Assembly (NCBI GenBank): GCA_030039575.1
Contig: JASHVH010000421.1
Span: forward strand, 1-12,373
Length of the DNA stretch: 12,373 bases
Source: Acidimicrobiales bacterium
Lineage (GTDB): Bacteria > Actinomycetota > Acidimicrobiia > Acidimicrobiales > Palsa-688
Direction: 5' to 3'
The translations under genes were made by a program, and so were the position numbers. The notes under the pieces are model-generated. The model saw only the letters and a program-made list of their open reading frames with translations, had not been told where the DNA came from and ran no database searches. Below, piece by piece: positions 1 through 12,373 of this stretch (the first letter of the stretch is position 1; each line of letters opens with the position of its first letter).

Positions 1-125
1 CCGTCGCCACGGTCGACGACGCCTGGTACAACCTGGCCGCCTGTTTGGCGTTCTATGAGAGTGCCCGAACTGGAGAGAGGGTGTCACCCGTGGCAATGCC
101 ACAATTACAGCCGATGACCCGATGA
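1..125 (+). CDS. Gfo/Idh/MocA-family oxidoreductase, C-terminal fragment (5' end outside window)
   Basis: The frame starting at base 3 is open from the window edge to a TGA at 123-125 and encodes about 40 residues. The segment reads DAWYNLAACLAFYESARTGE, which resembles the last helix of Gfo/Idh/MocA sugar dehydrogenases, where an acidic residue, an aromatic/Leu helix and 'YESARTG' usually close the C-terminal domain. Those enzymes oxidise or reduce a sugar hydroxyl with NAD(P). The stop overlaps the start of the next gene as ATGA, and that neighbour is of the same family, so two related dehydrogenases lie in tandem. Only the tail is visible, so substrate and completeness cannot be judged. 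The family call rests on a short motif and on the neighbour. Confidence 0.7.
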   Translation, partial: VATVDDAWYNLAACLAFYESARTGERVSPVAMPQLQPMTR

Positions 126-1393
126 CAGGCAGTCCACTTCGGCTTGGAGTGTTGGGTGCGGGCACGATAGCGACCGTGGACTACGGGATCCTCCCCAACC
201 TGAACAAAATCCGCAACAAAGTGCGGGTCGTTTCGATCGCGGACCTCGTGATTGAGCGGGCACGCGCGGCGGCCGAGGCGTTCGGCATCCCGATGGCCTG
301 CGCCAGCCTGGACGAGCTACTCGCCGGCCCCGAGACGGATGCCATCGTCAACCTCACGCCGATACCGGTGCACGGCGAGACATCTATACAGGTACTGCGG
401 GCGGGTAAGCATCTCGTCACCGAGAAGCCCTTGGCCACGAGCATGGCCGACGCCGACCGGATCTGCTCGCTGGCCCAGGCGGCAGGCTTGGTGGTCGTCT
501 GCGCCCCGTACAACATGCTGTTCCCCGACCGGTTGGCAGCCTACCGGCTGGTGGCTAGCGGGGCCGTCGGCAAGGTGGCGTTCGCTCGGGTCCGGTCCTC
601 GCACGGGGGACCGGCCGCCGGGACCTGGCCCTACGACCCGTCGTGGTTCTACCAGAAAGGTTCCGGCCCGTTGTTCGACATGGGTGTCTACGGGATCCAC
701 GAGATCACAGGCATTCTCGGTCCGGCCCGGCGGGTTGTCGCGTTTGCAGGGGTAACCGAGCCCAGCCGGGTCGTACGGGGCGGGCCCTACCGGGGCAGGA
801 CAATCGAGGTCACTGCCAATGACAACGTCCTCATGATGCTCGATTTCGGCGACGCCACCTTTGCCGTTGTCGACGGCACTTTCAACGTCAACGCCGGCAG
901 GGGGCCCAAGCTGGAAGTGTTCGGGCGGGAGGGCACCCTGAACCTGAGTGGCGCCCCGTGGGCGGGTGAAGGGCCGGTGCTCGAAGTGTTCAAGATGGAT
1001 GCGGTAAACGAATTGCGCGGGTGGGTTACGCCCTCGCTGGGTGAGGTCAACCAGCGGATGGACTGGGTCCTCGGGTTGCACCGCGCCGCCATGGTCGACC
1101 ACCTGGCCGACTGCCTGCACTACGGCCTTGACCCGCTTTTGAACGTCGACCATGCCCGGCACATCCTGGAGATCATGCTGGCCGCCGAGGAGTCCGCCCA
1201 GTCCGGCTGCGCCGTGGCACTGGAGACCTCGTTCTCGTTACCCACAGAACTGTGGTGGGAGGCGGGCTATGCCACCACTCATCCCGAAGATGCCGGCGCC
1301 GCCTTGGCCAGTCTCGCCTCCGTCACTGATGCAGGCGCGACCGCGACCGCGACCACCCCAACTGCCCACGAGCACGGAGTTCCGAAGAAGTGA
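122..1393 (+). CDS. Gfo/Idh/MocA-family NAD(P)-dependent sugar oxidoreductase
   Basis: A 423-residue cytoplasmic dehydrogenase expected to oxidise or reduce a sugar, cyclitol or glycoside hydroxyl. The N-terminal Rossmann fold shows G12-A-G14-T-I-A17 and an acidic D41 at the end of the second strand, which suggests NAD preference. The family motif EKP is at 101-103, with the lysine expected in catalysis. The mixed-sheet domain carries D186-M-G-V-Y190, a variant of the DxGxH/Y motif. The length is slightly above the usual 330-400. The extra part is a low-complexity Ala/Thr tail (about 402-423) encoded partly by a tandem hexamer. The ATG at 122 overlaps the previous stop as ATGA, and no clear ribosome-binding site precedes it, so translational coupling is likely. 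Adjacent ThuA and TIM-barrel genes fit a keto-sugar pathway, as in ThuB (trehalose) or DgpA-like (C-glycoside) systems. The substrate is unknown. Confidence 0.92.
   Translation: MTGSPLRLGVLGAGTIATVDYGILPNLNKIRNKVRVVSIADLVIERARAAAEAFGIPMACASLDELLAGPETDAIVNLTPIPVHGETSIQVLRAGKHLVTEKPLATSMADADRICSLAQAAGLVVVCAPYNMLFPDRLAAYRLVASGAVGKVAFARVRSSHGGPAAGTWPYDPSWFYQKGSGPLFDMGVYGIHEITGILGPARRVVAFAGVTEPSRVVRGGPYRGRTIEVTANDNVLMMLDFGDATFAVVDGTFNVNAGRGPKLEVFGREGTLNLSGAPWAGEGPVLEVFKMDAVNELRGWVTPSLGEVNQRMDWVLGLHRAAMVDHLADCLHYGLDPLLNVDHARHILEIMLAAEESAQSGCAVALETSFSLPTELWWEAGYATTHPEDAGAALASLASVTDAGATATATTPTAHEHGVPKK
1337..1354 (+). repeat. tandem GCGACC hexamer, three copies
   Basis: Three perfect consecutive copies of GCGACC lie inside the 3' end of the Gfo/Idh/MocA gene and encode part of an Ala-Thr-Ala-Thr tail. 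The tract is in frame, so changes in copy number would alter tail length by two residues without a frameshift. Confidence 0.75.
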
Positions 1394-2061
1394 GCCAGGA
1401 CCAACCACTTTCGGCGATGGTCGTCGTCGCCGGTTCAGATGTGCACCATGACCTCATTGGAGGAGCACTAACTCTCCAGTCTCTGCTGGTTGACGCCGGC
1501 ATCCGGACCAGGCGGGCGGTCGGGCTGGAACGCTTCGTTAACCCGCTCCCCGCCACCGCGGGCACAGATGTGTTCGTGTTGTATACGGCAGGCGGCGCAC
1601 TGAGCGGCCGCGAGCAGGAGTCGTTGTCCGACCTCGTCGCGGCGGGAAAGGGAGTGGTGGCGGTCCATGCCTCCATCGTGTTCGCCTCGGACGGCACCGA
1701 AGGTTCCCCCGACCGCACGCGGGCCGAGCTGCTGGGCTGCCGCTACCTCTCCCACGGCCCCGACGGCGTTTCAGGCCGTTACAAGGTCCAGATCCTGGGG
1801 CAGCACCCCATTACAGAGGGGGTCGAGGACTTCGATATCGACGATGAGTACTACCACATCGAACTGATAGAGACCTCCAAGGCCGAGGTGCTGGCACAAC
1901 GCTGGTCTTCGATCGGAGACGAGCCCATCCTCTATGTGCGCCAGCACGGCGAGGGACGGGTGTGCTACCTCTCCCTGGGCCACGACATGCGCGCTTGGGG
2001 CAACCCGGGCTTCCGCTCCCTCGTCCGTCAAGCGGCGCTGTGGGCCGGAGGTGAGCGTTGA
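1390..2061 (+). CDS. ThuA-like domain protein
   Basis: A 223-residue protein matching the ThuA-like (class I glutamine amidotransferase-like fold) family. An Asp-rich DVHHD segment lies at 17-21 and VFVLYT at 61-66 is a core strand. HPITEGVEDFDIDDEYY at 139-155 and GRVCYLSLGHDMRAWG at 189-204, followed by a helix ending LWAGG, are typical of the family. ThuA of rhizobia works with a Gfo/Idh/MocA partner (ThuB) in trehalose use through a 3-keto intermediate; the chemistry of most homologues is unsettled. The GTG start overlaps the upstream stop as GTGA, and the gene ends in a TTGA overlap with the next. The protein is probably cytoplasmic, since no signal peptide is seen. Its position between an oxidoreductase and a TIM-barrel isomerase supports a role in processing a keto-sugar. 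The family call is firm, the reaction is not. Confidence 0.88.
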   Translation: MSQDQPLSAMVVVAGSDVHHDLIGGALTLQSLLVDAGIRTRRAVGLERFVNPLPATAGTDVFVLYTAGGALSGREQESLSDLVAAGKGVVAVHASIVFASDGTEGSPDRTRAELLGCRYLSHGPDGVSGRYKVQILGQHPITEGVEDFDIDDEYYHIELIETSKAEVLAQRWSSIGDEPILYVRQHGEGRVCYLSLGHDMRAWGNPGFRSLVRQAALWAGGER

Positions 2062-2852
2062 CCCCCGCCACCATCGGCGTCCAGATGTACTCGGTCGACG
2101 AACAGGCAGCGAAGGACTACAGGTACGCGCTGGAGCGCATCTCCCGCATGGGGTACGCGGGAGTGGAGCTTTATGGCTTGCACGGCCAGTCCCCGGCGGA
2201 GGTCCGCAAGTGGGCCGACGATCTCGGCCTCGTGTTTTCAAGCGCGCACGCACCATTTCCTGTCGGCCCCGCCGGCCGCCAGACCCTCGACCAGCTGGCC
2301 GAACTCGGGGTGCCGACGCTTACTTGGAGCCTCGAGGCGGACGAGTTCCGGAGCCGCGACAGCATTGCTTCGGGGTCGGTCCGGGTAAACGAGGGTGCGG
2401 CCCAGGCCGCTTCGTACGGGATAGAGGTGGCATACCATAACCACTGGGCCGAGTTCACGACCACTTTCGAGGGGCGGCCTGCCTACGACGTTCTCTGGGA
2501 CCACCTCGACCCACGCGTCCTGGCCGAAGTCGACGTGTACTGGGTACAGCTTGGTGGGGCCGACCCGGTGGCTGTCCTGGAACGGCTCGGTGAGCGAGCG
2601 CGTTACCTTCATGTGAAGGACGGGCCGGCAGACGACCCTCTTGCGCCAATGGTGGCCACCGGCGGAGGTGCTCTCGACATCCCGCGGATAATCGCGGCTG
2701 CGCCTCACGCTCGCTGGCACCTGGTCGAATTCGATCGCTGCGCCACGGACACGTTTGTGGCCCTGGCCGAAAGCTACCGGTACCTGATCGGCCGTGGCCT
2801 TTCCGGCGGCGGGAAAAGAGCCGTGGAGCCGCAGCTCTGGGAGGAAGGATGA
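2058..2852 (+). CDS. sugar phosphate isomerase/epimerase-type TIM-barrel protein
   Basis: A 264-residue protein of the xylose-isomerase-like / AP-endonuclease family 2 fold. It starts with TIGVQMYSV and GYAGVELYG (33-40), then has SSAHAPF (61-67) and YHNHWAEF (126-133). EVDVYWVQLG (157-166), LHVKDG (184-189) and HLVEFD (221-226) follow. By position, E132, D159, H185 and E224 should form the divalent-metal site, and H127/H129 should line the active site. Relatives include IolE/IolI-type enzymes, ketose epimerases and deglycosylating enzymes that act on 3-keto-glycosides. The start is TTG at 2058, overlapping the ThuA stop. A GGAGGTGA stretch at 2047-2054 lies just upstream, and no better in-frame start is seen. 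The stop overlaps the amine-oxidase start as ATGA. The substrate cannot be read from the sequence. Confidence 0.9.
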   Translation: MTPATIGVQMYSVDEQAAKDYRYALERISRMGYAGVELYGLHGQSPAEVRKWADDLGLVFSSAHAPFPVGPAGRQTLDQLAELGVPTLTWSLEADEFRSRDSIASGSVRVNEGAAQAASYGIEVAYHNHWAEFTTTFEGRPAYDVLWDHLDPRVLAEVDVYWVQLGGADPVAVLERLGERARYLHVKDGPADDPLAPMVATGGGALDIPRIIAAAPHARWHLVEFDRCATDTFVALAESYRYLIGRGLSGGGKRAVEPQLWEEG

Positions 2853-4804
2853 CCGTGACCGGGACCGGGCAACCGGTTAACGCCGCACAGGCCCCCACCC
2901 GGCACCCGCTCGACCCGGTCACCGAAGCCGAGTTTACCGTCGGGCGAGAAGTCATGGCCCGGGCGGGCCTGGTGCGGGAGTCGACGCGTTTCGCCTACGT
3001 CGGGCTCGAGGAACCGGCGAAGCAACATGTGTTGTCCGGCCCGGGCGGCACCGGGTGCGAGCGGCGTCTGCGTGCTTTCCTCATCGATTTGGCCACCGGG
3101 CGGTCAAGCGATGTGGTTGTGTCCCTCGACAAAGGCGAGGTCGTTTCCCGACGGGACATCGACTGTACTAAGGAGGGTCAGCTTCCCATCCTGGAGGAGG
3201 ACTTCGAACGCATCGACCAGGCGGTGCATAACGACGCGGCCTGGCGCGCCGCGATGGAGAAGCGGGGCCTGACGGACATGTCCAAAATCCGTACGTGCCC
3301 ACTGACCGCGGGGTCGCACGTTTTCCCGGGCGAAGAAGGCCGGCGAATGGTGCGGGTTTTGGCGTTCGTCCAGGAAGACGAGGCCGACCTGGCGTGGGCG
3401 CACCCCGTCGACGGCGTCGTGGCCTACGTCGACATCATCGAGGGCCGCGTGCTCCAGCTAGTAGACGACGTCAACCTGGCCGTCCCCGTGCAGAGCGGCA
3501 ACTACGATGACGAGAAGGTAAGCGGCCCACCGCGCACAACGTTGCGGCCGATCGAGATCAGCCAGCCCGAGGGCTCCAGCCTCCGCGTCGACGGGCATCG
3601 GGTCGACTGGGACCGCTGGACGTTGCGAGTCGGCTTCGACGCCCGCGAGGGCCTCGTGCTGTACCAGGTCTGCTACCAGGACGGTAGCCGTCAGCGTCCG
3701 ATAATTTATCGAGCCTCGGTGCCTGAAATGGTCGTCCCCTATGGCGACCCAAGCCCCACCCGCTTTTTCCAGGCTTACTTCGACAGCGGTGAGTTTTTGC
3801 TCGGCCGCTATGCGAACTCACTCGAGCTGGGGTGCGATTGCCTCGGAGAGATCACTTATCTCGACGCCACCGTTACCGACGACTACGGCCGGCCCCGGAC
3901 CATCGCCAACGCGATCTGCCTGCACGAAGAGGATTTCGGGATCCTGTGGAAGCACACGGACATCTTCAACCACTCGGCGCAGACGCGACGCCAGCGCCGG
4001 CTGGTGGTCTCCTTCTTTTGCACTGTCGGCAATTATGACTACGGTTTCTACTGGTACTTCTATCTGGACGGCACGATCGAGCTCGAGATAAAGCTCACCG
4101 GGGTGATTTTTACCTCGGCCTACCCGGGGCCAGGGTACAGGTACGCGACCGAGGTCGCCCCCGGTCTCGGTGGCCCATACCATCAGCATCTCTTCAGCGC
4201 CCGGCTCGACATGATGGTCGACGGCGTACCCAATGCCGTCGAGGAGGTCGACGTCGAAGCCCCTCCTCTTGGGCCAGATAACCCTTATGGCAATGCACTG
4301 GTCCGCTCCGTGACCAGGCTCAAGCGGGAGGGCGAAGGACGCCGTCTGGCGGCCCCGGCGAAGGGACGTTTTTGGCAGGTGCTCAGCACCGAACGGGCCA
4401 ACTCGCTCGGGCAGCCGGCCGCATACGCGCTGGTGCCGCAGGTGGCGCCGACGCTGCTCGCCGACCCCAGTTCAGCCATCTACGGGCGAGCAGGGTTCGC
4501 CACGCACCACCTCTCTGTTACTGCGTATGACCCGGCTCAACGCTACTCGGCCGGCGATTTTGTCAACCAGCACCCTGGAGGCGGCGGCTTACCCAGCTAT
4601 GTTTCGGGCGACCGCGCCATCGACGGGACCGACATCGTCCTCTGGCACACCTTCGGGCCGACTCACATTCCCCGTCCTGAAGATTGGCCGGTGATGCCGG
4701 TCGAGCGGTGCGGGTTCAGTTTGAAGCCGATGGGTTTCTTCGATCGAAACCCGGCTCTCGACGTCGCCCCACCAGCACGGCACTGCCACGAGGGATCGCC
4801 GTAG
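2849..4804 (+). CDS. copper-containing (TPQ) primary amine oxidase
   Basis: A 651-residue quinoprotein that converts a primary amine, O2 and water to an aldehyde, NH3 and H2O2. The topaquinone precursor is Y396 in TVGNYDYG. Copper ligands are H445 and H447 (HQH) and H605 in THIPRPEDWPVMP. D312 in YFDSGE is the catalytic base, and Y310 sits at the gate position. Compared with the remembered numbering of Arthrobacter globiformis phenylethylamine oxidase (Y382, H431, H433, H592, D298, Y296), the offset is 14, or 13 for the last histidine. The enzyme therefore looks colinear and intact. There is no signal peptide, so it should be cytoplasmic. It starts at an ATG overlapping the isomerase stop (GAGGAAGG just upstream), making it part of the sugar operon. 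Aromatic amines such as phenylethylamine or tyramine are common substrates, but the substrate here is not established. Confidence 0.96.
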   Translation: MTVTGTGQPVNAAQAPTRHPLDPVTEAEFTVGREVMARAGLVRESTRFAYVGLEEPAKQHVLSGPGGTGCERRLRAFLIDLATGRSSDVVVSLDKGEVVSRRDIDCTKEGQLPILEEDFERIDQAVHNDAAWRAAMEKRGLTDMSKIRTCPLTAGSHVFPGEEGRRMVRVLAFVQEDEADLAWAHPVDGVVAYVDIIEGRVLQLVDDVNLAVPVQSGNYDDEKVSGPPRTTLRPIEISQPEGSSLRVDGHRVDWDRWTLRVGFDAREGLVLYQVCYQDGSRQRPIIYRASVPEMVVPYGDPSPTRFFQAYFDSGEFLLGRYANSLELGCDCLGEITYLDATVTDDYGRPRTIANAICLHEEDFGILWKHTDIFNHSAQTRRQRRLVVSFFCTVGNYDYGFYWYFYLDGTIELEIKLTGVIFTSAYPGPGYRYATEVAPGLGGPYHQHLFSARLDMMVDGVPNAVEEVDVEAPPLGPDNPYGNALVRSVTRLKREGEGRRLAAPAKGRFWQVLSTERANSLGQPAAYALVPQVAPTLLADPSSAIYGRAGFATHHLSVTAYDPAQRYSAGDFVNQHPGGGGLPSYVSGDRAIDGTDIVLWHTFGPTHIPRPEDWPVMPVERCGFSLKPMGFFDRNPALDVAPPARHCHEGSP

Positions 4805-4860
4805 TGCCACCTGCGAACGGGGATGCCCCGAAAGCCCGGGCGTACGAAGCCCACTCTCAC

Positions 4861-4869
4861 GGAGAGGAA
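4861..4869 (+). promoter_or_regulatory. ribosome-binding site deciding the SIS gene start
   Basis: GGAGAGGAA ends three bases before the ATG at 4873, placing its core at normal spacing. It supports ATG 4873 over the in-frame GTG at 4804, which overlaps the amine-oxidase stop by one base and has only a weaker GAGGG at 4788-4793. Confidence 0.65.
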
Positions 4870-4872
4870 AGA

Positions 4873-5892
4873 ATGGACTATTACCAGGCGGTCGGCTCAC
4901 AGCCCGCCAACCTCGAACGCTCAGCCGTAAGCGTCCGGAACGGACTGGAGGAGAAGGACCTCACGCCGTGGCGCAATGGCGTGCTGGCAGTCGCCTCGAT
5001 GGGGGCGAGCACCCACGCCGGCCACGCATTAGTCGACTGCCTTAGGCGTAACGGACGGCGTGCCTTCAACCTTGATGCCTCATCAATCATGATGCTGGCA
5101 GATGTTGTCGACCTCGCCGATAGCTATGTGTTCGTCTCCGAGGGCGGCCGGAGCAGGGAGACGGTAGACGCGGCCACGCGGGTACCGGCGGGACGCCGTC
5201 TAGGTCTGACCAACGAGCCCGACAGCCCGTTTGGGGAAGTGATCGATGTGGTCGTCGACCTCGGCCATGGCCCTGACAGCCCGGTTTATACCGTGGGTTA
5301 TACGGCCACCCTGCAGGCCTTTGGCCTCCTGGCGGAGGCGCTGTGCCATGAATATGGAGGAGAGGACTGGAAAAGCCTGCCCGGCCAAGTCGAAGAGACG
5401 TTAACGGTGTACGCCCCGGTCATAGCCGGCATAGCCTCAGGCGCCACCTCCCTCTCTTCAGTGGACTTCGTGGGGTGCGGTCCATCGCTTTCGTCGGCGG
5501 CGGAGGGAGCACTGCTGTTACGGGAGTCGACGCGCATGGCGACGGCCGCGTTTGAGACCTACCAGTACCTCCATGGCCCAATGGAGTCCCTGGACGTAAA
5601 CTGCGGCTGCGTCATCTTCGGCAATGACCGCGAGGTGCAGCTGGCCGGGTACCTGGCCGAGCGGGGTGTGTTCACGATTTTGGTGACATCCGCGAAGGTC
5701 AAGGCAGAGGCGTCCTTGAGGGTCGTGCAGATCCCGGAGGTCGGCCCGATCAGTCGAACGATCCTGGAGATCCTCCCGGTACAGCTGTTGGCTGGAGAGC
5801 TAGCCCGGCTGCGCGGCCTGGAGATCAAAGACTTCCTCTACCACCAGGATGACTCCAAGATCGCAGTCGGCACGGGGCTCCTGGGTAACTAA
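4873..5892 (+). CDS. SIS-domain sugar-phosphate isomerase/deglycase-like protein
   Basis: A 339-residue stand-alone double-SIS protein related to the isomerase half of GlmS and to FrlB/FraB fructosamine-6-phosphate deglycases. The opening YYQAVGSQPANLERS is the usual family N-terminus. Phosphate-binding loops are ASMGASTHAG (41-50) and SEGGRSRETV (89-98). The second domain has EGALLLRES (211-219) and HGP (234-236). E218 and H234 align with GlmS E488 and H504, the same 16-residue spacing. The lysine at GlmS 485 is L215 here, and the C-terminal NLAKS lysine of GlmS is not recognisable (tail HQDDSKIAVGTGLLGN). That points away from Schiff-base isomerase chemistry and toward a deglycase or other lyase. 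It lies 68 nt after the amine oxidase, same strand, probably same transcript. Amino-sugar-phosphate deaminase/isomerase is the alternative. Confidence 0.85.
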   Translation: MDYYQAVGSQPANLERSAVSVRNGLEEKDLTPWRNGVLAVASMGASTHAGHALVDCLRRNGRRAFNLDASSIMMLADVVDLADSYVFVSEGGRSRETVDAATRVPAGRRLGLTNEPDSPFGEVIDVVVDLGHGPDSPVYTVGYTATLQAFGLLAEALCHEYGGEDWKSLPGQVEETLTVYAPVIAGIASGATSLSSVDFVGCGPSLSSAAEGALLLRESTRMATAAFETYQYLHGPMESLDVNCGCVIFGNDREVQLAGYLAERGVFTILVTSAKVKAEASLRVVQIPEVGPISRTILEILPVQLLAGELARLRGLEIKDFLYHQDDSKIAVGTGLLGN

Positions 5893-5899
5893 TCCTGCG

Positions 5900-7030
5900 T
5901 CAGGCGCTTTTACCGGGCCTCTGCCTTGTGGCCGGGCGTCTACGGGCTGGTGCACTGCGTACCGGGGTGCCCTTCGCTGCACCGGTTGATTCGCGCACCA
6001 CCAGGGCCGTTGGCAGCCGCCCGAGCTGCGTCGAACCCCCGGGAGGGCCTAATGCCACCGTGACGGCGAGCCGCCCCATCTCGGCCATCGGCACCCTAAT
6101 TGTCGTTAGGGGAGGCTGGAGATCCTCGGCGACGGGGATGTCGTCGAAACCGGCGACGGATACGTCGCGGGGGACACGGAGCTTGCGTTCTCGCAAGATC
6201 GTGAGCGCTCCAATAGCCATAACGTCGTTGAGGGCGAAGATGGCTGTGAGCCCGACCACCGAGTCCAGTAGGTCGCTAGTGGCGGCCCGGCCACCATCGC
6301 GGGTGAAGTCGCCTTCGCGGATCTGCTCGTCGTTGAGGTCGACCCCTAGCTTGGCCAGCTGGTCCCGGAAACCGGCCAGCCTGCTGGCCGTTAACCCGGC
6401 CGGGCCGGCGATGACACCAATACGGCGGTGGCCCAGGTCCACCAGGTGATTGGCCATCTGGCGACCACCATCGACGTTGTCAGACATTACGGCGTCGCCG
6501 GTCGCCTGATAGTGGCCCATCAGCGCCGCCCGCCCGCCACCTCGCTTGAACTCGAGGATTTCCTTGGCGATCCGCTCCCCGACCTCACCTTCACCGCTTC
6601 CGGCGAGCAGCAAGGCATCTACGCGCTGTGCCCGGAAATGACGGATGTACGCCAACTCGCGCTCTGCGTCCCGATATGTATTACAGATAAAGAGCATCCG
6701 CCCGCTCTTCTCGGCAGCCTCGAGCGCACCGCGCACGATCTCGGAGAAATACGGGTCGCTGACATCGTGCACAACGACGCCCACCGAGGTATCGCGCGAG
6801 CTCGCCAGCGCCCGTGCATGAGGGTTGGGCTGGTAGTTGAGTTTGGCGGCGGCGGCGATCACGCGTTGGCGAAGTTCGACACCAACGTTGCGTGAGTTCC
6901 GCAGTACCCGAGAAGCAGTGGCATCCGACACCCCCGACAGCTCGGCCACGTCGCGCAAGCTGGTGGCCCGGTGACTGAGTGGCCCTACAGCGGGTATGCG
7001 TTTTGCACTCGCGGTCCTTGCACTTGGCAT
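5900..7030 (-). CDS. LacI-family transcriptional repressor
   Basis: A 376-residue LacI/GalR regulator. The DNA-binding domain is ATSLRDVAELSGVSDATASRVL (about 22-43), with hinge NYQPNPHARALAS (65-77) including the minor-groove leucine L75. A periplasmic-binding-protein-like sensor follows, with VVVHDVSDPYFSEIVRG and later RRIGVIAGPAG, FALNDVMAIGAL, VSVAGFDDIPVAEDLQPPLTTIRVP. ATG 7030 is preferred to TTG 7036 because the minus-strand AGGA (7040-7043) lies 9 nt from the ATG but only 3 nt from the TTG. About 20 residues precede the helix-turn-helix, more than usual, and a basic tail (PARRRPATRQRPGK) ends the protein. It is convergent with the SIS gene (7-nt gap) and divergent from the SDR gene. 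It probably controls the cluster in response to a sugar and may repress itself through the site at 7114-7129. Confidence 0.94.
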   Translation of the reverse strand: MPSARTASAKRIPAVGPLSHRATSLRDVAELSGVSDATASRVLRNSRNVGVELRQRVIAAAAKLNYQPNPHARALASSRDTSVGVVVHDVSDPYFSEIVRGALEAAEKSGRMLFICNTYRDAERELAYIRHFRAQRVDALLLAGSGEGEVGERIAKEILEFKRGGGRAALMGHYQATGDAVMSDNVDGGRQMANHLVDLGHRRIGVIAGPAGLTASRLAGFRDQLAKLGVDLNDEQIREGDFTRDGGRAATSDLLDSVVGLTAIFALNDVMAIGALTILRERKLRVPRDVSVAGFDDIPVAEDLQPPLTTIRVPMAEMGRLAVTVALGPPGGSTQLGRLPTALVVRESTGAAKGTPVRSAPARRRPATRQRPGKSA

Positions 7031-7091
7031 CGGCAATGATCCTAACGAAAATCAGACCGCTCCGCTGGGGTTGGGCGGGAGGGCCATCTCT

Positions 7092-7108
7092 TCTGCCGAG
7101 CAGGCAGA
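7092..7108. repeat. inverted repeat TCTGCC-N5-GGCAGA in the divergent intergenic region
   Basis: Perfect 6-bp arms with a 5-bp spacer lie 5 bp to the left of the LacI-type operator core region. It could be a second regulator site, or a small hairpin in the 5' leader of the repressor mRNA. Chance occurrence is possible at this GC content. Confidence 0.35.
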
Positions 7109-7113
7109 GCTGT

Positions 7114-7129
7114 GGGTAAGCGCTTGCTG
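7114..7129. promoter_or_regulatory. LacI-type operator GGGTAAGCGCTTGCTG
   Basis: The core GTAAGCGCTTGC (7116-7127) is palindromic except for one pair and has the central CG of LacI/GalR-family operators. It lies between the divergent LacI and SDR genes, 86 bp from the repressor start and 121 bp from the SDR start. This is the expected place for autoregulation and for control of the right block. A related palindrome at 8301-8316 matches it at 11 of 16 positions. Binding by this particular repressor is inferred. Confidence 0.65.
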
Positions 7130-7195
7130 GTGTGAGGCTAGGCTGGGCCGCGGGCAGACGGTGCAGGAGAAACCTTAGGGACAACAATAGGGAAA

Positions 7196-7230
7196 GGCCG
7201 GCATCGCGCCCGTACCGATGCCATTTGGCC
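7196..7230 (+). repeat. inverted repeat / leader hairpin before the SDR gene
   Basis: GGCATCG (7200-7206) pairs with CGATGCC (7216-7222) around a 9-nt loop. GGCC (7196-7199) can extend the stem with GGCC (7227-7230) across a 4-nt bulge, giving about 11 bp. It ends 7 nt before the ribosome-binding site at 7237-7243. It has no following T-run, so it is not a terminator; a leader structure or protein-binding site is possible. Confidence 0.4.
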
Positions 7231-7249
7231 GGCTAAGGGAGGAAGCGAC

Positions 7250-8239
7250 GTGGGTGCGTTGCAGGTCTTGTTCATAGGTGGGACCGGCATGATCAGTTCA
7301 GCGTGCGCGGCCGAGGCTTTGGCCCGAGGAGCTGAGGTCACAGCGGTGACTAGAGGACAGGGCCATAAGCGCCCCGTCCCAGACGGTGTTGAACTGTTAC
7401 AAGCGGACGCGCGAGACCGGGTAGCTTTCGAGGCCGCGCTGGGGGACCGCAGCTTCGACGTGGTGGCGAATTTCATCGGCTATACGCCGGACCACGTGCA
7501 GGCCGACGTCGACCTGTTCGGGCCCGGCGGCCGGGCGCCTGTCAGGCAATACATCTTTATAAGCACAACGTCGGTCTATCAGCGGCCGGTGGTCCAGCTA
7601 CCGATCCTGGAGTCGACCCCGCGTTCCAACCGCGCGTGGCCGTACCCCAGTGACAAAATCGACTGCGAACTGCTCCTCGAGGAGGCGCACCGCCGCACGG
7701 GTTTCCCGGTAACGATTGTCAGGCCGTGTCATACCTATGACAACGGAGTCGTCCCGGTACACGGGGGGTGGACCGTGGTAGACCGGATGCGCCGCGACAA
7801 GCCGGTGGCTGTGCACGGTGACGGGACATCGCTGTGGGTGCTTACCCACCGAAGCGACTTCGCTCGCGGTTTCGGTGGACTTCTCTACAATGTCCACGCC
7901 ATCGGCGACAGCGTCCATATAACCAGTGACGAAGTGCTGACGTGGGACCAAATCTATGGTGAACTGGGCCGAGCCGCCGGGGTGGAGCCCAGGCTTGTTC
8001 ACCGCTCGAGCGAGCAGATCGCTCAACAAGTCCCGGCGTGGGGCCCGTCCCTGGTGTCCGATTTTGCCCACTCGCTCATCTTCGACAACTCGAAGATCAA
8101 GCGTTTCGTCCCTGGTTTCGTCGCCACCCACTTGTTCAGTTCAGAGGCACGCGAAATAATCGCGTTCCACGACGCCCACCCCGAGCTGTGCCGCGTCGAC
8201 CCCGAGCTCGATGCCGCCCTGGACCGTCTGGTGTCGTAG
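7250..8239 (+). CDS. NAD(P)-dependent epimerase/dehydratase (extended SDR family)
   Basis: A 329-residue extended short-chain dehydrogenase. The N-terminal nucleotide loop is GGTGMIS (10-16), a variant of GGTGxxG with Ser in the last position. TR at 34-35 after the second strand hints at NADP binding. Catalytic residues are probably T107 in STTSVY (105-110) and Y132/K136 in YPSDK. A GRP-like IVRPCHTYD segment and TSLWVLTHRSDFARGF follow, as in sugar-nucleotide-epimerase-like proteins, and the length fits the family. The start is GTG 7250 with GGGAGGA at 7237-7243. It is the first gene of the right block, divergent from the LacI gene and downstream of the operator. The 170-nt gap to the next gene holds its own regulatory signals. 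A role in oxidising or epimerising a sugar intermediate is likely; the substrate is unknown. Confidence 0.9.
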   Translation: MGALQVLFIGGTGMISSACAAEALARGAEVTAVTRGQGHKRPVPDGVELLQADARDRVAFEAALGDRSFDVVANFIGYTPDHVQADVDLFGPGGRAPVRQYIFISTTSVYQRPVVQLPILESTPRSNRAWPYPSDKIDCELLLEEAHRRTGFPVTIVRPCHTYDNGVVPVHGGWTVVDRMRRDKPVAVHGDGTSLWVLTHRSDFARGFGGLLYNVHAIGDSVHITSDEVLTWDQIYGELGRAAGVEPRLVHRSSEQIAQQVPAWGPSLVSDFAHSLIFDNSKIKRFVPGFVATHLFSSEAREIIAFHDAHPELCRVDPELDAALDRLVS

Positions 8240-8300
8240 GCGCGTTCGGGCTTGTCGAGCAGGGCCTTGCGACGGGCAGCATTCGCGGCCTAATGTCTAA

Positions 8301-8316
8301 GGGAAAGCTCTTTCCC
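8301..8316. promoter_or_regulatory. operator-like palindrome GGGAAAGCTCTTTCCC
   Basis: Arms GGGAAAG and CTTTCCC are perfectly complementary around a 2-bp centre, too tight for a hairpin and typical of a dimer-binding site. It lies 51 bp upstream of a TTGACA and matches the LacI-type site at 7114-7129 at 11 of 16 positions, sharing GGGNAAGCNCTTNC. No T-run follows. It may bind the same LacI protein, which would place the aldehyde dehydrogenase genes under the same control; this is inferred. Confidence 0.5.
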
Positions 8317-8367
8317 AACATGCGTGGCCATAACTGTTTTGGGCCTTGCGTCCGGGTTCAGGGCCGT

Positions 8368-8395
8368 TTGACAGCTGCGAGCCATCGTGTACAGA
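8368..8395 (+). promoter_or_regulatory. possible sigma70-type promoter for the aldehyde dehydrogenase
   Basis: A perfect -35 hexamer TTGACA (8368-8373) is followed after 16 nt by a weak -10 TACAGA (8390-8395). Initiation would fall near 8402, leaving a leader of about 8 nt in front of ATG 8410, so the ribosome-binding site would be partly at the 5' end. The -10 is only half matching, so the call is tentative. Confidence 0.35.
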
Positions 8396-8409
8396 GATCG
8401 GGGAGGGAA

Positions 8410-9873
8410 ATGGCGAGCATTCAGGGCGAATGGGAAGAGAGCCTCTTTGTAGACGGGCGTTTTCGTGCCGCAAGCCGAGGAACGACGCTCGAGGTGCTGG
8501 ACAAGGGTAACGGTGAGGCCCTCGGTGTCGTCGGCCTGGCTGGACCGGCCGATGTGGATGAGGCGGTGGCCGGCGCCTGCCGTGCGCAGCGGGAGTGGGC
8601 CGAGCGGAGCTACGTGGACCGGGCTGCGCTCCTGAGAGGCGTCGCCGCTGAGCTGGAGCGGCGCAGTGCGTTGTTACGGGAGGTAATCGTCCGAGAAACC
8701 GGCTCGATCGCCGGGAAGGCTGACTATGAAGTCGGGGCGGCGGTGTCCGAGCTTCTGGAGGCGGCCGGCCTGGCCGGGCGACCGTTCGGCGAGTTGTTGC
8801 GATCCAGTCACAGCGGCCGAATTTCGGTTTCGGAGCGGACGCCCCTCGGCGTAGTCGGTGCCATAACGCCGTGGAACTTCCCGCTCATACTGGGGATGCG
8901 GGTAATAGCCCCGGCGCTGGCGCTCGGGAACGTCGTCGTTCTGAAGCCGTCTCCCGAAACTCCGCTAAGCGGCGGCCTGTTGCTGGCAGAGGTTTTCGCC
9001 GCCGTAGAGGCTCCGCCGGGGATTTTCCAGGTGGTGCCCGGAGGCGACGACGTCGGACGGAGGCTGGTGGAACACCCGGGCGTAGCCATGGTGCACTTCA
9101 CCGGGTCCACCAGGGTCGGGAGGGAGATAGCCAGCTCCGCCGGCAAGCTGCTGAAGAAGGTCTCGCTCGAGCTCGGCGGGAACAACGCGCTGATCATCTT
9201 CGACGATGTCGACATCGACGAGGCGGCCATGATCGGTGCCTGGTCGAGTTTTCACTACCAGGGCCAGACTTGCATCACCGCCGGGCGTCACATAGTACAG
9301 CGAGGCGTTGCGGCCGACTACGTGGAGCAGTTGGCCAAGCGGGCCACTGCGATCGTCGTGGGAGACCCGTTTCGCGACAAGGTAGGGCTCGGCCCGATGA
9401 TCAACTCGGGCCAGCTCGAACGAGCCCGATCGATGCTCGAAGAAGCCACGCGCGACGGCGCCCGCATCGTCGCCGGGGGGACCACTAACGGCAGGTACTT
9501 CCTGCCCACGGTGGTCGCGGAAGTTCGTCCCGAAATGCGCTTGTGGCAAGAAGAGATCTTTGCCCCGATCGCACCCGTGCTGGCCGTCGAAGGCGAGGAT
9601 GAAGCCGTCGAGGTGGCGAACGATACGGACTACGGGCTCGTCAATTCGGTGCTGAGCGGCGACCCAGCGCGCGCACTGCGCGTTGCTCGCCGCCTCAGAG
9701 CGGGCATGGTGCACGTCAACGACGCCACCCCGCAGGATGAAGCCGTCGCCCCGTTCGGCGGGACCGGCAGCTCCGGCTTGGGTGGCCGCTCCGGCGGGGA
9801 AGCAAACCTCGAGGAATTTACCGAAAGGCGCTGGCTAACCGTGGCGACGGCACCCCCCCATTACCCGTATTAA
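8410..9873 (+). CDS. aldehyde dehydrogenase, benzaldehyde-dehydrogenase type
   Basis: A 487-residue NAD(P)-dependent aldehyde dehydrogenase, full length. N156 in PWNFP, K179 in LKPSPETP, E254 in LELGGNNA, C288 in GQTCIT and E382 in EEIFAP form a complete catalytic and cofactor set. The N-terminus (EWEESLFVDGRFR) and GQTCITAGRHIV resemble benzaldehyde/aryl-aldehyde dehydrogenases (XylC-like) more than betaine or succinate-semialdehyde enzymes. ATG 8410 is chosen because GGGAGGG (8401-8407) precedes it and the family N-terminus begins there. The open frame extends upstream into the SDR gene but that extension has no family similarity. It could oxidise the aldehyde made by the amine oxidase encoded in the left operon. 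The next gene starts 25 nt downstream. Substrate assignment is inference. Confidence 0.95.
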   Translation: MASIQGEWEESLFVDGRFRAASRGTTLEVLDKGNGEALGVVGLAGPADVDEAVAGACRAQREWAERSYVDRAALLRGVAAELERRSALLREVIVRETGSIAGKADYEVGAAVSELLEAAGLAGRPFGELLRSSHSGRISVSERTPLGVVGAITPWNFPLILGMRVIAPALALGNVVVLKPSPETPLSGGLLLAEVFAAVEAPPGIFQVVPGGDDVGRRLVEHPGVAMVHFTGSTRVGREIASSAGKLLKKVSLELGGNNALIIFDDVDIDEAAMIGAWSSFHYQGQTCITAGRHIVQRGVAADYVEQLAKRATAIVVGDPFRDKVGLGPMINSGQLERARSMLEEATRDGARIVAGGTTNGRYFLPTVVAEVRPEMRLWQEEIFAPIAPVLAVEGEDEAVEVANDTDYGLVNSVLSGDPARALRVARRLRAGMVHVNDATPQDEAVAPFGGTGSSGLGGRSGGEANLEEFTERRWLTVATAPPHYPY

Positions 9874-9898
9874 ACGACTCTCCCCGAAGGAGCGAGCC

Positions 9899-10879
9899 GT
9901 GTGGTGCAGCCAGGTCGTGGGACCGGGAAAATCGGAGGTCGTCACCGTCCCCGACCCCGCACCCGGGCCAGGACAAGTCCTGGTCAAAGTAGAGGCCAGC
10001 GGCGTCTGCGCGTCGGACCGGGAGGCCTGGCGTAGCCACAGCGGCGGCAAACCACGCCGGCTCGGCCACGAGGTAGCTGGGTCGATCGTCGCTGTCGGTG
10101 GACAGGTTTATGGTTGGGCCGCCGGTGAGCGAGTGACCGGCCTCGGTAGTCCTGGTAACGCCGAACTTCTGGTCATGGACGCGGCGTCCATCCTGCCTGT
10201 CCCGGATGGCGTGCCTTCCGAAGCCGCTCTGGGCGAGCCCCTGGCCTGCCAGGCCGAGACTTTCCTGCGCACGCCTGGTATCAACGGGGCGCGTTTCGGA
10301 GTGGTCGGGCTCGGTTACATGGGACTTGGGTTCCTTCAGCTAGCGCGCCAGAGCGGCCCTTCTGCCATCATCGGCGTGGATCTGACCGAGACAGGCCGAA
10401 AGGTGGCGCTCAGCCTTGGGGCCAGCGAGGTGTACCACCCGGAGGCTCTGCCGGAAGGCTACCGCAGCTCTTCCAATGTGACATTGGCTCTGGACCCGCG
10501 CTGCCGTGTCGTGCTCGAGGCGACAGGATCGGCCGCCGGCCTCGCGCTGGCGGGGGAGATGGTCGCCCCGGACGGTGTGCTCGTCGTTCTCGGCTATCAC
10601 GCCAGTGGTCCTCGCCAGCTTGACCTATCGCTCTGGTACAAGGGCGTGACGATCATCAACGGCTTTACGGGCAATCGCGTGCGGCGCATGCAGGCGATGG
10701 CCTGGGGGCTGGGCCTGATCCGGGAACGCACGATCAGTTACGCACCGATGATCACTCACCGCTTCGGGTTGGAGGACGTAGATGCCGCTTTCAACCTGTT
10801 CGACGAGCGGCCCAACGGCTTCGTGAAGGCTGTCATCACCCCTGAATTTGAGCGCCCCAATTTGGCGCGCCCGTCATAG
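9899..10879 (+). CDS. zinc-type medium-chain alcohol/sugar dehydrogenase lacking the structural-zinc loop
   Basis: A 326-residue MDR-superfamily dehydrogenase. The catalytic zinc ligands expected from sorbitol/threonine-dehydrogenase relatives are present: C37 in GVCASD, H57-E58 in GHE, and E113 in GEPLAC. The nucleotide fold has GLGYMG (137-142) and D161 ending the second strand, suggesting NAD. The four-cysteine structural-zinc lobe is absent, which accounts for the short length against the usual 340-360. GTG 9899 is selected with AAGGAG (9887-9892) six bases upstream. It lies 25 nt after the aldehyde dehydrogenase and so is probably co-transcribed. Sugar or polyol oxidation at a secondary hydroxyl is the likely activity; reduction of an aldehyde is possible. 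Confidence 0.9.
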   Translation: MWCSQVVGPGKSEVVTVPDPAPGPGQVLVKVEASGVCASDREAWRSHSGGKPRRLGHEVAGSIVAVGGQVYGWAAGERVTGLGSPGNAELLVMDAASILPVPDGVPSEAALGEPLACQAETFLRTPGINGARFGVVGLGYMGLGFLQLARQSGPSAIIGVDLTETGRKVALSLGASEVYHPEALPEGYRSSSNVTLALDPRCRVVLEATGSAAGLALAGEMVAPDGVLVVLGYHASGPRQLDLSLWYKGVTIINGFTGNRVRRMQAMAWGLGLIRERTISYAPMITHRFGLEDVDAAFNLFDERPNGFVKAVITPEFERPNLARPS

Positions 10880-10887
10880 AGGCATTG

Positions 10888-10897
10888 AGGTGCACCT
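10888..10897. repeat. perfect 10-bp palindrome AGGTGCACCT
   Basis: It lies in the 42-nt gap between the dehydrogenase and kinase genes and is followed by TTTAGTTTT. As a hairpin it allows only a short stem, so it is at best a weak attenuator; a protein-binding site or chance are equally possible. Confidence 0.3.
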
Positions 10898-10921
10898 TTT
10901 AGTTTTGCCAGATGTAACCAA

Positions 10922-11917
10922 ATGAAACCGGCAGCAGGGAGCAGGTTGAGGGGTTCGCTCATCGTTGGCGCGGACGTCGGGGGCAGCAAAGCCAGCGTCA
11001 TCATTTCCTATGCTGACACGGCCACAGTGAAGAGAGCGGTAACGGTGCCAAGCATCGAGTGGTACCGCACCGGGCTTCAGGCCGTGGCCGAGGGACTGGC
11101 CGCGGCGCTCGATGACGGCGAGCGAGACGAGGTCAGTACCGTTGTGGTCGGGGCTCACGGCTGCGACACGCGCGAGCAGTGCCACCGCCTGGAGCGCGCT
11201 CTCGGGACCATCCTGGGCGTGCCCGTACTTGCTCTTAATGACGCCGAGCTGGTGCTTCCCGCCGCTGGTGCCGTGTCCGGGATAGGCCTGATCAGCGGCA
11301 CTGGTTCGATAGCCGTGGGGTATGACCGGGACGGAAGGCTCATCGCGGCGGGTGGATGGGGAGGTTTCATCGGTGACGAGGGGAGCGCCACGGGCCTCTT
11401 CCGGGACAGCGCCCGGGCCGCCGTCCTGGCCTACGACCGGGGAGACCAGGAAGACCCGCTATCGACTGCCCTGTTGGAGTTACTTGATTTGGCCGACTTA
11501 CGCGACTTACCAGCGCGGTTGGCTACCGATGTGCCGCCAACGGCGTGGGCGGTGCTCGCCCCGCCGGTCCTCGAAAGAGCTCTGTCAGCCGGGTCGTCAC
11601 TCGCCTCGCGTGTGGTCGACGAATCGGCTGCGGCCCTCGCCGATTTGGTCGTGGTGCTCGGCGAGCGAGGCGGTGACACTACCGTGGTCGTAGCCGCCGG
11701 AGGTCTCGTCACCAACGCCGAGTGGATGCGCAGCGCGCTATTACGCGTGTTCTCGGAGCGCTTGCCGGCTAGTCGTATATCGTTCCTCGACGCCGAGCCT
11801 GTGCTCGGTGCCGTCCGTCTCGGCATCGATTTCGCTGGTCTCTTGGCGGGCCGAGAACCCTCCCATGGCCTGCACCCTCGCTTGCGCGAATCACTTCTAT
11901 CATTAGGGCCTGTTTGA
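10922..11917 (+). CDS. BadF/BadG/BcrA/BcrD-type ATPase, N-acetylglucosamine-kinase-like sugar kinase
   Basis: A protein of up to 331 residues in the ASKHA kinase fold, NAGK-like branch. The phosphate-1 loop is GADVGGSK (16-23). LNDAEL (105-110) contains the probable catalytic base D107. ISGTGSIAVGY (124-134) and GGWGGFIGDEGSA (144-156) are the hallmark phosphate-2 and sugar-site segments. VVVAAGGLV later gives the adenosine motif. It should phosphorylate a sugar or amino sugar with ATP in the cytoplasm. The start is uncertain. ATG 10922 has no visible ribosome-binding site, whereas TTG 10946 has AGGGAG (10936-10941) four bases upstream and would remove eight residues before the first strand. 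It follows the dehydrogenase by 42 nt. Together with the SIS protein it could supply the phosphosugar to be cleaved; this is inference. Confidence 0.88.
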   Translation: MKPAAGSRLRGSLIVGADVGGSKASVIISYADTATVKRAVTVPSIEWYRTGLQAVAEGLAAALDDGERDEVSTVVVGAHGCDTREQCHRLERALGTILGVPVLALNDAELVLPAAGAVSGIGLISGTGSIAVGYDRDGRLIAAGGWGGFIGDEGSATGLFRDSARAAVLAYDRGDQEDPLSTALLELLDLADLRDLPARLATDVPPTAWAVLAPPVLERALSAGSSLASRVVDESAAALADLVVVLGERGGDTTVVVAAGGLVTNAEWMRSALLRVFSERLPASRISFLDAEPVLGAVRLGIDFAGLLAGREPSHGLHPRLRESLLSLGPV

Positions 11918-12138: not shown

Positions 12139-12159
12139 ATGAGAGGAAGCGGAAAATGA
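12139..12159 (+). CDS. possible hexapeptide leader ORF (MRGSGK)
   Basis: ATG 12139 opens a six-codon frame ending in TGA at 12157-12159, which overlaps the ATG of the secreted-protein gene as ATGA. AAGGAA (12125-12130) lies eight bases upstream at normal spacing. The same bases (GAGAGGAAG) inside this mini-ORF also serve as the ribosome-binding site for the next start, so translating it would directly affect that start. It may be real coupling or chance. Confidence 0.3.
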   Translation: MRGSGK

Positions 12160-12373
12160 GACGGAAAACAACGCAGTACCGACTTGTGGGAACCACCGCA
12201 GTCATGTCGGTGACGTTGCTCGCTAGCGTGCAAAGCTCCGTCGTGGCCACCCCGGTCGCAGCCGGCAGACTGGTACCGGCAGCGTCCGAGCAGACGGTAC
12301 AGCTCTGGAACTGGGACACCGTCGGTGATGACCCGGGCGAGCACGCCACGGTCCCGGTCGCCATCACCGAGAT
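12156..12373 (+). CDS. secreted protein, N-terminal fragment (3' end outside window)
   Basis: The ATG at 12156 follows GAGAGGAAG (12141-12149) and opens a frame that runs to the window edge, 72 codons. The N-terminus MRRKTTQYRLVGTTAVMSV is basic, followed by a hydrophobic core to about residue 31. The possible cleavage site is VVA-TP (29-33) or VAA-GR (34-38), giving a Sec-type signal peptide. No lipobox cysteine is present. The mature part begins EQTVQLWNWDTVGDDPGE, which I do not recognise with confidence. Position next to a sugar cluster suggests either a substrate-binding protein or a secreted carbohydrate-active enzyme, but 40 mature residues cannot decide this. Confidence 0.7.
   Translation, partial: MRRKTTQYRLVGTTAVMSVTLLASVQSSVVATPVAAGRLVPAASEQTVQLWNWDTVGDDPGEHATVPVAITE

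Follow-up and report, generated by a model that had tools for sequence, protein, structure and literature searches.

The closest described systems are those for fructosamines, frlBONMD of Bacillus subtilis, frlABCD of Escherichia coli and fra of Salmonella, which combine import, a sugar kinase and a SIS protein that cleaves the C-N bond between sugar and amine. The kinase of these systems is of the PfkB type (FrlD is annotated as a fructoselysine 6-kinase). Soil, plant residues and heated food commonly contain Amadori and Heyns products, and all bacterial routes for them that we know of release amino acids.

We analysed a stretch of 12,373 nucleotides from an Acidimicrobiales bacterium (contig JASHVH010000421.1; the window), which encodes a SIS protein, a BadF/NAGK-type kinase, a copper amine oxidase (CAO) and an aldehyde dehydrogenase (ALDH). 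As for the fructosamine systems, we propose import, a sugar kinase and C-N bond cleavage by a SIS enzyme, and the SIS protein retains the active-site Glu and His. The differences are that the kinase is not PfkB, that the SIS protein is nearer to GlmS and that CAO and ALDH are added, pointing to an amine rather than an amino acid as product. In Shewanella, a BadF-type kinase is paired with a SIS enzyme (NagK/NagB-II, SO3507/SO3506), and these are among the nearest NCBIfam models; however, the window proteins score far lower (SIS 27.9 bits, NagB-II cut-off 430; kinase 51 bits, NagK_SO3507 cut-off 370), CAO and ALDH are present, and no NagA-like gene was noticed when the gene lists of the window, L004, L027, L029 and L034 were read (a reading of lists, not a model search). 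The CAO shares family and motifs with the phenylethylamine oxidase of Arthrobacter globiformis, and the ALDH is of the aryl type, as in aryl-amine oxidation, but here both are tied to a sugar kinase, a SIS protein and a LacI-operator-like site. Finally, Gfo/Idh-ThuA-TIM clusters for sugar oxidation, which are of the 3-keto-glycoside type, contain the three genes that share one operon in the window, but the window has CAO and SIS directly downstream and a kinase-SIS route in addition. A literature search found no description of this combined system.

Gene content of the locus

The window has the following features:

3..125, plus strand: C-terminal part of an upstream gene truncated at the contig edge; its frame stays open up to a stop at 123-125
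122..1393, plus strand: Gfo/Idh/MocA oxidoreductase (PF01408, 72.7 bits; PF22725, 69.5 bits)
1390..2061, plus strand: ThuA-family protein (PF06283, 82.1 bits)
2058..2852, plus strand: xylose-isomerase-like TIM barrel, sugar isomerase/epimerase class (PF01261, 43.3 bits)
2849..4804, plus strand: copper (TPQ) primary-amine oxidase, AGAO-like by PRK11504, 1rjo and motifs
4873..5892, plus strand: double-SIS sugar-phosphate protein, proposed to catalyse the C-N cleaving step
5900..7036, minus strand: LacI-family regulator (PF00356, PF13377)
7115..7128, no strand: palindrome resembling a LacI operator, in the gap from LacI to the rightward block, with 1 mismatch to GGNAAGCGCTTNCC
7250..8239, plus strand: NAD-dependent epimerase/dehydratase family protein (PF01370, 71.0 bits)
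8302..8315, no strand: second operator-like palindrome, 1 mismatch, 94 bases 5' of the ALDH start
8410..9873, plus strand: aryl-aldehyde-type aldehyde dehydrogenase (PF00171, 498.8 bits)
9899..10879, plus strand: zinc-type alcohol/polyol dehydrogenase (PF08240, PF00107)
10922..11917, plus strand: BadF/NAGK-type sugar kinase (PF01869, 61 bits)

The stop of the truncated upstream gene overlaps the start of the Gfo/Idh/MocA gene (ATGA). The genes from Gfo/Idh/MocA to CAO are linked by 4-base overlaps, the last of which, into CAO, is again ATGA, and the SIS gene starts 68 bases past the CAO end. LacI lies on the minus strand and thus sets off the genes at 7250-11917, among them kinase and ALDH, as a rightward block of their own. 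All named genes are intact and open, and gene calls and matches thus bear out the layout that the sequence-only reading had described: an intact TPQ amine oxidase within a sugar operon and followed by SIS, and a neighbouring block that contains an aryl-type ALDH and a BadF/NAGK-type kinase. The Gfo/Idh/MocA protein passed no NCBIfam equivalog cut-off. ThuA (54-55% identity, four clusters), the TIM barrel (44-46%), the epimerase/dehydratase (54-57%) and the alcohol/polyol dehydrogenase (48-49%) have relatives in a group of clusters referred to as type C.

The window is one contig of a metagenome-assembled genome (MAG) that is 68% complete, and misbinning is therefore possible. A search of two genomes from the same genus gave no SIS. 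The window contains no transporter, and its genome has only 24-29% identical relatives of the type A transporter, on other contigs.

Linkage of the four genes in other genomes

Homologues were drawn from genome, plasmid and contig searches. The four genes that had been read as one pathway recur together: CAO, SIS, BadF and ALDH lie at most 10 kb apart not only in the window but also in an actinomycete MAG and in genomes drawn as relatives of it, 10 further genomes in total. Three gene orders occur, including a tight CAO-SIS-BadF-ALDH operon. The set is found in 12 loci: two of type A, eight of type B, the window and one of Sinorhizobium. Seven of the type B loci are close kin (SIS 91-100% identical) and the eighth, of G581, has 77% identity; nine genes are common to all eight (a substrate-binding protein, two permeases, GntR, Gfo/Idh, CAO, SIS, BadF and ALDH). 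In the type B locus L029, CAO is followed after 22 bases by SIS, and SIS, BadF and ALDH are joined by 4-base overlaps. All 11 related loci with the four genes have a carbohydrate-type ABC transporter, and both type A loci have an amino-acid (APC) permease within the CAO operon.

The proximity of CAO and SIS exceeds chance: 9 of 198 genomes have SIS, six of these with CAO within 5 kb (two lineages and hence not six independent cases), while CAO density predicts about 0.008 of 9 within 10 kb, taking 7.3 Mb per genome. On the SIS tree, CAO linkage requires at least two changes on the starred branches, and the group of the window, L004 and L027 stands apart from type B; the CAOs of this group and of type B form one clade. 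Among 30 CAO loci read, from 196 genomes, SIS, BadF and ALDH adjoin CAO in 6 of 13 clade members, and none of the 17 outside the clade has SIS, BadF, this ALDH or the APC permease nearby. For the other seven clade CAOs, SIS is absent out to 10 kb or the end of the contig. Conversely, SIS and BadF occur without CAO or ALDH in the four type C clusters and in four Leifsonia/Glaciihabitans loci.

The LacI of the window has 38-45% identity to its counterparts in L004 and in six SIS-less clade CAO loci. Perfect copies of the LacI-operator-like palindrome GGNAAGCGCTTNCC lie 5' of CAO/ALDH or APC operons in eight related loci: the 18 clade loci (310 kb) have nine copies, spread over eight loci, and the 26 control loci (481 kb) have none. 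Both single-mismatch copies of the window are in upstream gaps. At two mismatches the palindrome is hardly enriched (36 in clade loci versus 23 in shuffles), and type B loci have no copy at 0 or 1 mismatch. In type A, an operator-like site lies between SIS and ALDH, which suggests that SIS/BadF is transcribed apart from ALDH/APC/CAO.

These neighbourhoods allow another reading, which we regard as quite improbable: Gfo/Idh, ThuA and TIM (Gfo, DUF993 and TIM in relatives) would oxidise an amine N- or O-glycoside and split off its aglycone, which would then be oxidised by CAO, with SIS and kinase handling only a by-product sugar. The 3-keto chemistry is putative here. The 4-base overlap that joins CAO to the Gfo/ThuA/TIM genes in the window fits such a route, as do five of the seven SIS-less clade loci: these have Gfo and DUF993 (three also TIM), a LacI 38-41% identical to that of the window and a perfect operator copy. 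However, the type B loci L029, L030, L032 and L034 keep CAO-SIS-BadF-ALDH with no ThuA, TIM or DUF993 match near the operon, and the Gfo of the window is only 23% identical to that of L004. A literature search on DUF993 returned nothing.

Enzyme identities and a proposed pathway

The CAO is predicted to be an AGAO-like primary-amine oxidase: it scores 883.9 bits against the NCBIfam model PRK11504 (cut-off 651) and has the motifs GNYDYG, YFD and HQH/WHTFG, which we take to hold the TPQ cofactor, the catalytic base and the copper ligands, respectively. Its closest solved relative is phenylethylamine oxidase (1rjo, 742 bits). Channel residues, compared by eye in 23 CAOs, do not clearly separate clade from outside CAOs. 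The ALDH, 64-66% identical to its counterparts in 10 loci, has its nearest solved relatives among enzymes for aromatic aldehydes, including 4-hydroxybenzaldehyde (351 bits), salicylaldehyde, benzaldehyde and vanillin dehydrogenases; of the SIS, kinase and ALDH proteins scanned, none passed an NCBIfam equivalog cut-off. PaaA/PaaC, as a test for a phenylacetate endpoint, were present in 5 of 16 genomes (G501, G550, G519, G618 and G576) and were found neither in the incomplete MAG of the window and six further genomes nor in the four type B genomes tested (G535, G581, G585 and G611), and phenylethylamine is therefore not favoured for the latter.

The SIS protein had been taken for an FrlB/FraB-type enzyme. 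Its catalytic residues agree: E218 and H234 are invariant and align with GlmS E488/H504 and with the Glu/His of E. coli FrlB, but this is not specific for FrlB/FraB, as GlmS shares both residues. Fold and profile do not agree and are nearer to GlmS, NagB-II and glucosamine-6-phosphate deaminases; the NCBIfam frlB equivalog (cut-off 430 bits), which E. coli FrlB matches with 812 bits, gave no match at E 0.001. An Amadori substrate is thus a candidate only. K329, invariant in A1 and A2, aligns three residues off the C-terminal lysine K603 of GlmS. The kinase belongs to the BcrAD_BadFG family, with an N-acetylmuramic acid/N-acetylglucosamine kinase (8zo3, 81 bits) as top solved match.

These similarities would suit an amino-sugar pathway, in which the kinase acts on glucosamine or a relative, SIS is an amino-sugar-6-phosphate deaminase releasing ammonia and CAO either comes in at an earlier step or attacks a further amine within the molecule (aminomethyl group or amine aglycone). 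The SIS profile and fold, the weak kinase similarity to NagK and MurNAc/GlcNAc kinases and three SIS relatives that adjoin NagA-like genes point in this direction. We nevertheless consider it unlikely: a plain amino sugar needs neither CAO nor aryl-ALDH, yet type B has both in the SIS/BadF gene run; all 33 aligned family sequences have Leu or Met (Leu215 in the window) in place of GlmS Lys485, which lies beside the catalytic Glu; and the five gene lists read showed no NagA-like gene. Identity with the glucosamine system of Sinorhizobium meliloti was rejected, as neither SIS nor BadF found a match at E 1e-5 on pSymB, presumably the home of the published glucosamine kinase gene SM_b21217 (judging by the SMb tag); this is a weak test.

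On balance we favour a role of the cluster in breaking down a small sugar-amine conjugate, whose amine would be primary and probably of the aryl type, with reactions and their order deduced from the gene content. The conjugate would enter by the carbohydrate-type ABC transporter seen in related loci, and the Gfo/Idh, ThuA, TIM, epimerase and alcohol dehydrogenase enzymes might reshape its sugar. The BadF/NAGK-type kinase would then phosphorylate the sugar and the SIS enzyme would cleave the C-N bond to a hexose phosphate and a primary amine, which CAO would turn into an aldehyde and ALDH into an acid. The substrate could be a ketosamine (Amadori type, a 1-amino-ketose yielding glucose-6-phosphate) or an N-substituted aldosamine (Heyns type, a 2-amino-aldose yielding fructose-6-phosphate). 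The pathway of the sequence-only reading is thus kept as far as four linked enzymes and a sugar-amine conjugate are concerned; its Amadori example, given the GlmS-like SIS protein, is one of two candidate substrate types. If correct, such a route, through release and oxidation of a primary amine, would broaden the chemistry of Amadori and Heyns product breakdown, give a function to the CAO clade in sugar operons and help to assign the plasmid BadF-SIS pair. It could also supply a deglycating enzyme whose active site resembles that of GlmS.

A related cluster on a Sinorhizobium plasmid

A plasmid of Sinorhizobium sp. B11 has a cluster orthologous to that of type B in transporter (68-75% identity), Gfo (75%), SIS (53%) and BadF (50%). 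It adjoins a different oxidase and dehydrogenase: CAO and ALDH are only 42% and 34% identical to the type B pair, lie on the opposite strand and adjoin a transporter of their own, of the polyamine type, and a copper-chaperone family protein.

This arrangement bears on whether a sugar and an amine module are merely neighbours or co-regulated, serving two separate nutrients from the same plant or soil material. The opposite strand and separate transporter in Sinorhizobium, the operator-defined units of type A and the existence of clade CAOs without SIS and of SIS-BadF without CAO would all be expected in that case. Against it, type B is a single tight gene run, none of the 17 CAOs read from outside the clade adjoins SIS or BadF, and another phylum has placed a different CAO and ALDH next to the orthologous SIS/BadF cluster; we think two nutrients very improbable. 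A bolder version of the favoured reading, which we put forward tentatively and at somewhat less than even confidence, is an undescribed, horizontally mobile catabolic system for sugar-aryl-amine conjugates, in which the phosphate of an N-substituted 2-amino-aldose (Heyns) or 1-amino-ketose (Amadori), formed by a BadF-type kinase, would be split at its C-N bond by a GlmS-like SIS enzyme before CAO and aryl-ALDH act. This system would be present in actinomycetes and would have been put together anew in a rhizobium, there with another oxidase and dehydrogenase.

BadF and SIS occur together in all 25 plasmid records that hold the SIS family, five Enterococcus records excepted. Ten neighbourhoods of the 25 records with SIS and BadF were fetched, and only that of B11 has CAO (9 of 10 have none); the comparison drew on 60 of 80 CAO records, and the other 15 SIS-BadF records may hold CAO. 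In seven of the 11 records that come next in CAO similarity, SIS, BadF, B11-type ALDH and B11-type PotD are all missing within 9 kb. B11 is also the sole record with a type-B-like transporter (68.5% identity; the next has 44%).

The amine module in the window

The window comprises the entire contig G000:C41 of a MAG of 3.83 Mb (565 contigs, 68% complete) and has ten complete genes. The genes for Gfo/Idh, ThuA, a TIM-barrel protein and the copper primary-amine oxidase (CAO) are joined by 4-base overlaps and, after a gap of 68 bases downstream of the CAO gene, are followed by the gene for the double-SIS sugar-phosphate protein (SIS). An oppositely oriented LacI regulator gene lies between SIS and a rightward block with the order epimerase, aldehyde dehydrogenase (ALDH), zinc-type dehydrogenase and BadF-type kinase. 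Reading of the genes confirmed what had been noticed from the sequence alone: an intact amine oxidase in a sugar operon with SIS next to it, and kinase and ALDH in the neighbouring block. The CAO is AGAO-like. Closest to the ALDH are 4-hydroxybenzaldehyde, salicylaldehyde, benzaldehyde and vanillin dehydrogenases; betaine-aldehyde dehydrogenases come further down the list. At positions 12156-12373, a gene with a signal-peptide-like N-terminus starts and is interrupted by the contig end. A further SIS gene (L038, on G000:C230; 35-37% identical) is present elsewhere in the MAG, and its neighbours look like a kinase of the ribokinase/PfkB type and an ABC permease.

Distribution and arrangement of the gene set

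The SIS gene is rare. Among 119 relatives, only the window's own genome had a match (E 1e-20); matches were also obtained in four of 396 genomes of a phylum sample that includes this genome (E 1e-30), in nine of 198 relatives of genome G501 (E 1e-40) and, when a type B SIS (see below) served as the query, in 17 of 247 genomes related to G535 (E 1e-40). The G501 and G535 searches combined gave 19 SIS-bearing genomes, and all 19 neighbourhoods were examined, using gene lists or matches to the window's genes. The suggested co-occurrence of SIS with amine oxidase, kinase and ALDH was borne out: CAO, BadF and ALDH are all within 10 kb of SIS in 10/19 genomes (G501, G550, G535, G581, G585, G611 and G701-G704). 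The gene set is real and conserved. Five of the 19 genomes have no CAO or ALDH match near SIS (G552, G599, G564, G576, G725): the SIS neighbour in G552 is presumably a PfkB-like kinase, SIS of G599 is accompanied by BadF and by genes that we take to be ABC-like, and in G564, G576 and G725 SIS adjoins what is probably a NagA-like protein.

Gene arrangements at SIS loci
Type A (L004, L027): BadF, carbohydrate ABC transporter, SIS, then ALDH, APC permease, CAO
Type B (8 genomes): SBP, two permeases, GntR, Gfo/Idh, then CAO-SIS-BadF-ALDH as a tight run
Type C (G606, G571, G709, G727): ThuA, TIM, epimerase, GntR-like gene, SIS, BadF, ADH

L004 is from an actinomycete MAG and the other loci came from genomes sampled as its relatives. 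All nine type B genes were found in 8/8 loci. Neither CAO nor ALDH is present in the type C clusters (4/4 genomes), for which the GntR label is our assumption. The window has a third gene order among the CAO-bearing loci and contains the type C genes with CAO and ALDH in addition. Because seven of the type B genomes are closely related to one another (SIS identity 91-100%, against 77% for G581), the independent lineages are few, namely the window, type A and type B. The type C order ThuA-TIM-epimerase-GntR-like-SIS-BadF-ADH occurs with transporter-like genes at L033, L058, L059 and L060; a Pfam search at E 0.001 gave no family for the L033 putative binding protein.

CAO phylogeny and a putative operator

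In the SIS tree, the CAO label changes at least twice on starred branches and the group of window, L004 and L027 is separate from type B, with weaker support for placing the window beside L004/L027 (87/70). The SIS-linked CAOs form, together with seven SIS-less CAOs, one clade (support 95/91). As the SIS groups are apart but the CAOs are one clade, either the CAO lineage was kept with a differing SIS partner or the link arose twice.

Of 196 genomes, 47 have CAO matches (64 in all); loci were obtained for 30 and sorted by the tree into 13 inside and 17 outside the clade. Six of the 13 clade loci have SIS, BadF and ALDH as neighbours. All seven SIS-less clade loci have an APC permease, six have LacI (38-44% identity to that of the window), five have Gfo and DUF993 and one has ALDH. 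SIS, BadF, this ALDH and the APC permease were found within 10 kb at none of the 17 outside loci at the score limits used, with some contigs shorter than 10 kb (one of 4.6 kb); LacI was present at two (29-30%), one of them also with Gfo/Idh (25%). A Gfo/Idh-DUF993 operon recurs beside LacI and APC permease-CAO genes (L101, L102, L104, L105, L107, L004:81-3243), including a TIM barrel in L004, L102, L105 and L107; a search of the open-licence PMC literature for DUF993 found no paper.

The core AAGCGCTT lies upstream of the window's epimerase gene. The wider palindrome GGNAAGCGCTTNCC, derived from this core and picked after the sites had been seen, occurs nine times without mismatch in the 310 kb of the 18 clade loci; these copies are spread over 8 loci, and every one of them precedes the ALDH/APC/CAO operon or sits between LacI and Gfo. 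The 481 kb of the 26 control loci contain no perfect copy and three instances of the bare core. Of copies with one mismatch, the window has two, one between LacI and epimerase and the other 94 bases ahead of the ALDH start, and the control has three. Permitting two mismatches leaves only a weak signal: there are 36 copies in clade loci, 23 in shuffled sequence and 24 in control loci. Type B loci, where the regulator is GntR instead of LacI, have no copy at 0 or 1 mismatch. The palindrome, which we take to resemble LacI operators, is a putative operator that links the amine module with a regulator of the sugar type, both in the window and in its type A kin; in type A, this putative operator also separates ALDH/APC/CAO from SIS/BadF.

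Possible substrate and plasmid settings

The idea that the cluster degrades a sugar conjugated to a primary amine is, in its general form, the best explanation; the specific reading, an Amadori product cleaved by an FrlB-type SIS, was not established. With an ALDH of the aryl type and an AGAO-like CAO, the amine may be aromatic. PaaA/PaaC are present in 5/16 genomes and were found in 0/4 type B genomes tested, so phenylacetate is no general endpoint. Judged by title or abstract opening, none of the papers listed from the open-licence PMC literature describes the gene set, whether for the gene combination or for Heyns catabolism. Glucosamine and galactosamine genes of S. meliloti are treated in passages of PMC11378808 and PMC4961836; active-site terms are absent from the text of PMC12051030.

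A fourth case of SIS/BadF beside CAO and ALDH is found in another phylum, on a plasmid of Sinorhizobium sp. B11 (L129); it is the only CAO-bearing one of ten neighbourhoods fetched from 25 plasmid records with SIS and BadF, and no other plasmid record has a type-B-like transporter. L129 is orthologous to type B in transporter (68-75% identity), Gfo/Idh (75%), GntR (52%), SIS (53%) and BadF (50%), and its adjacent CAO (42%) and ALDH (34%) are non-orthologous to the type B pair. These two genes run in the opposite direction and are accompanied by a copper-chaperone family protein and by a PotD/PotA-like transporter, which scores below the cut-off of the PotD model and above that of the polyamine ATP-binding model; the neighbourhood might consist of two independent operons. 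With its ALDH belonging to the succinate-semialdehyde type, the Sinorhizobium locus gives no pointer to an aromatic product.

Elsewhere, SIS-BadF pairs are accompanied by amino-acid ABC transporters, a YfcC-family permease or carbohydrate ABC transporters, in one further case the latter together with alanine racemase and a DSD1-family enzyme. Such mixed transporter partners would fit a family whose substrates are sugar-amino conjugates, without proving it. On a Klebsiella conjugative plasmid (L126, 8980-18873), the SIS-BadF-YfcC permease set adjoins a LacI-SIS-PfkB-amino-acid ABC transporter set, and on an Agrobacterium plasmid (L128, 12356-13471) a gene of the L-tyrosine/L-tryptophan isonitrile synthase family is close to a SIS-BadF-amino-acid transporter set.
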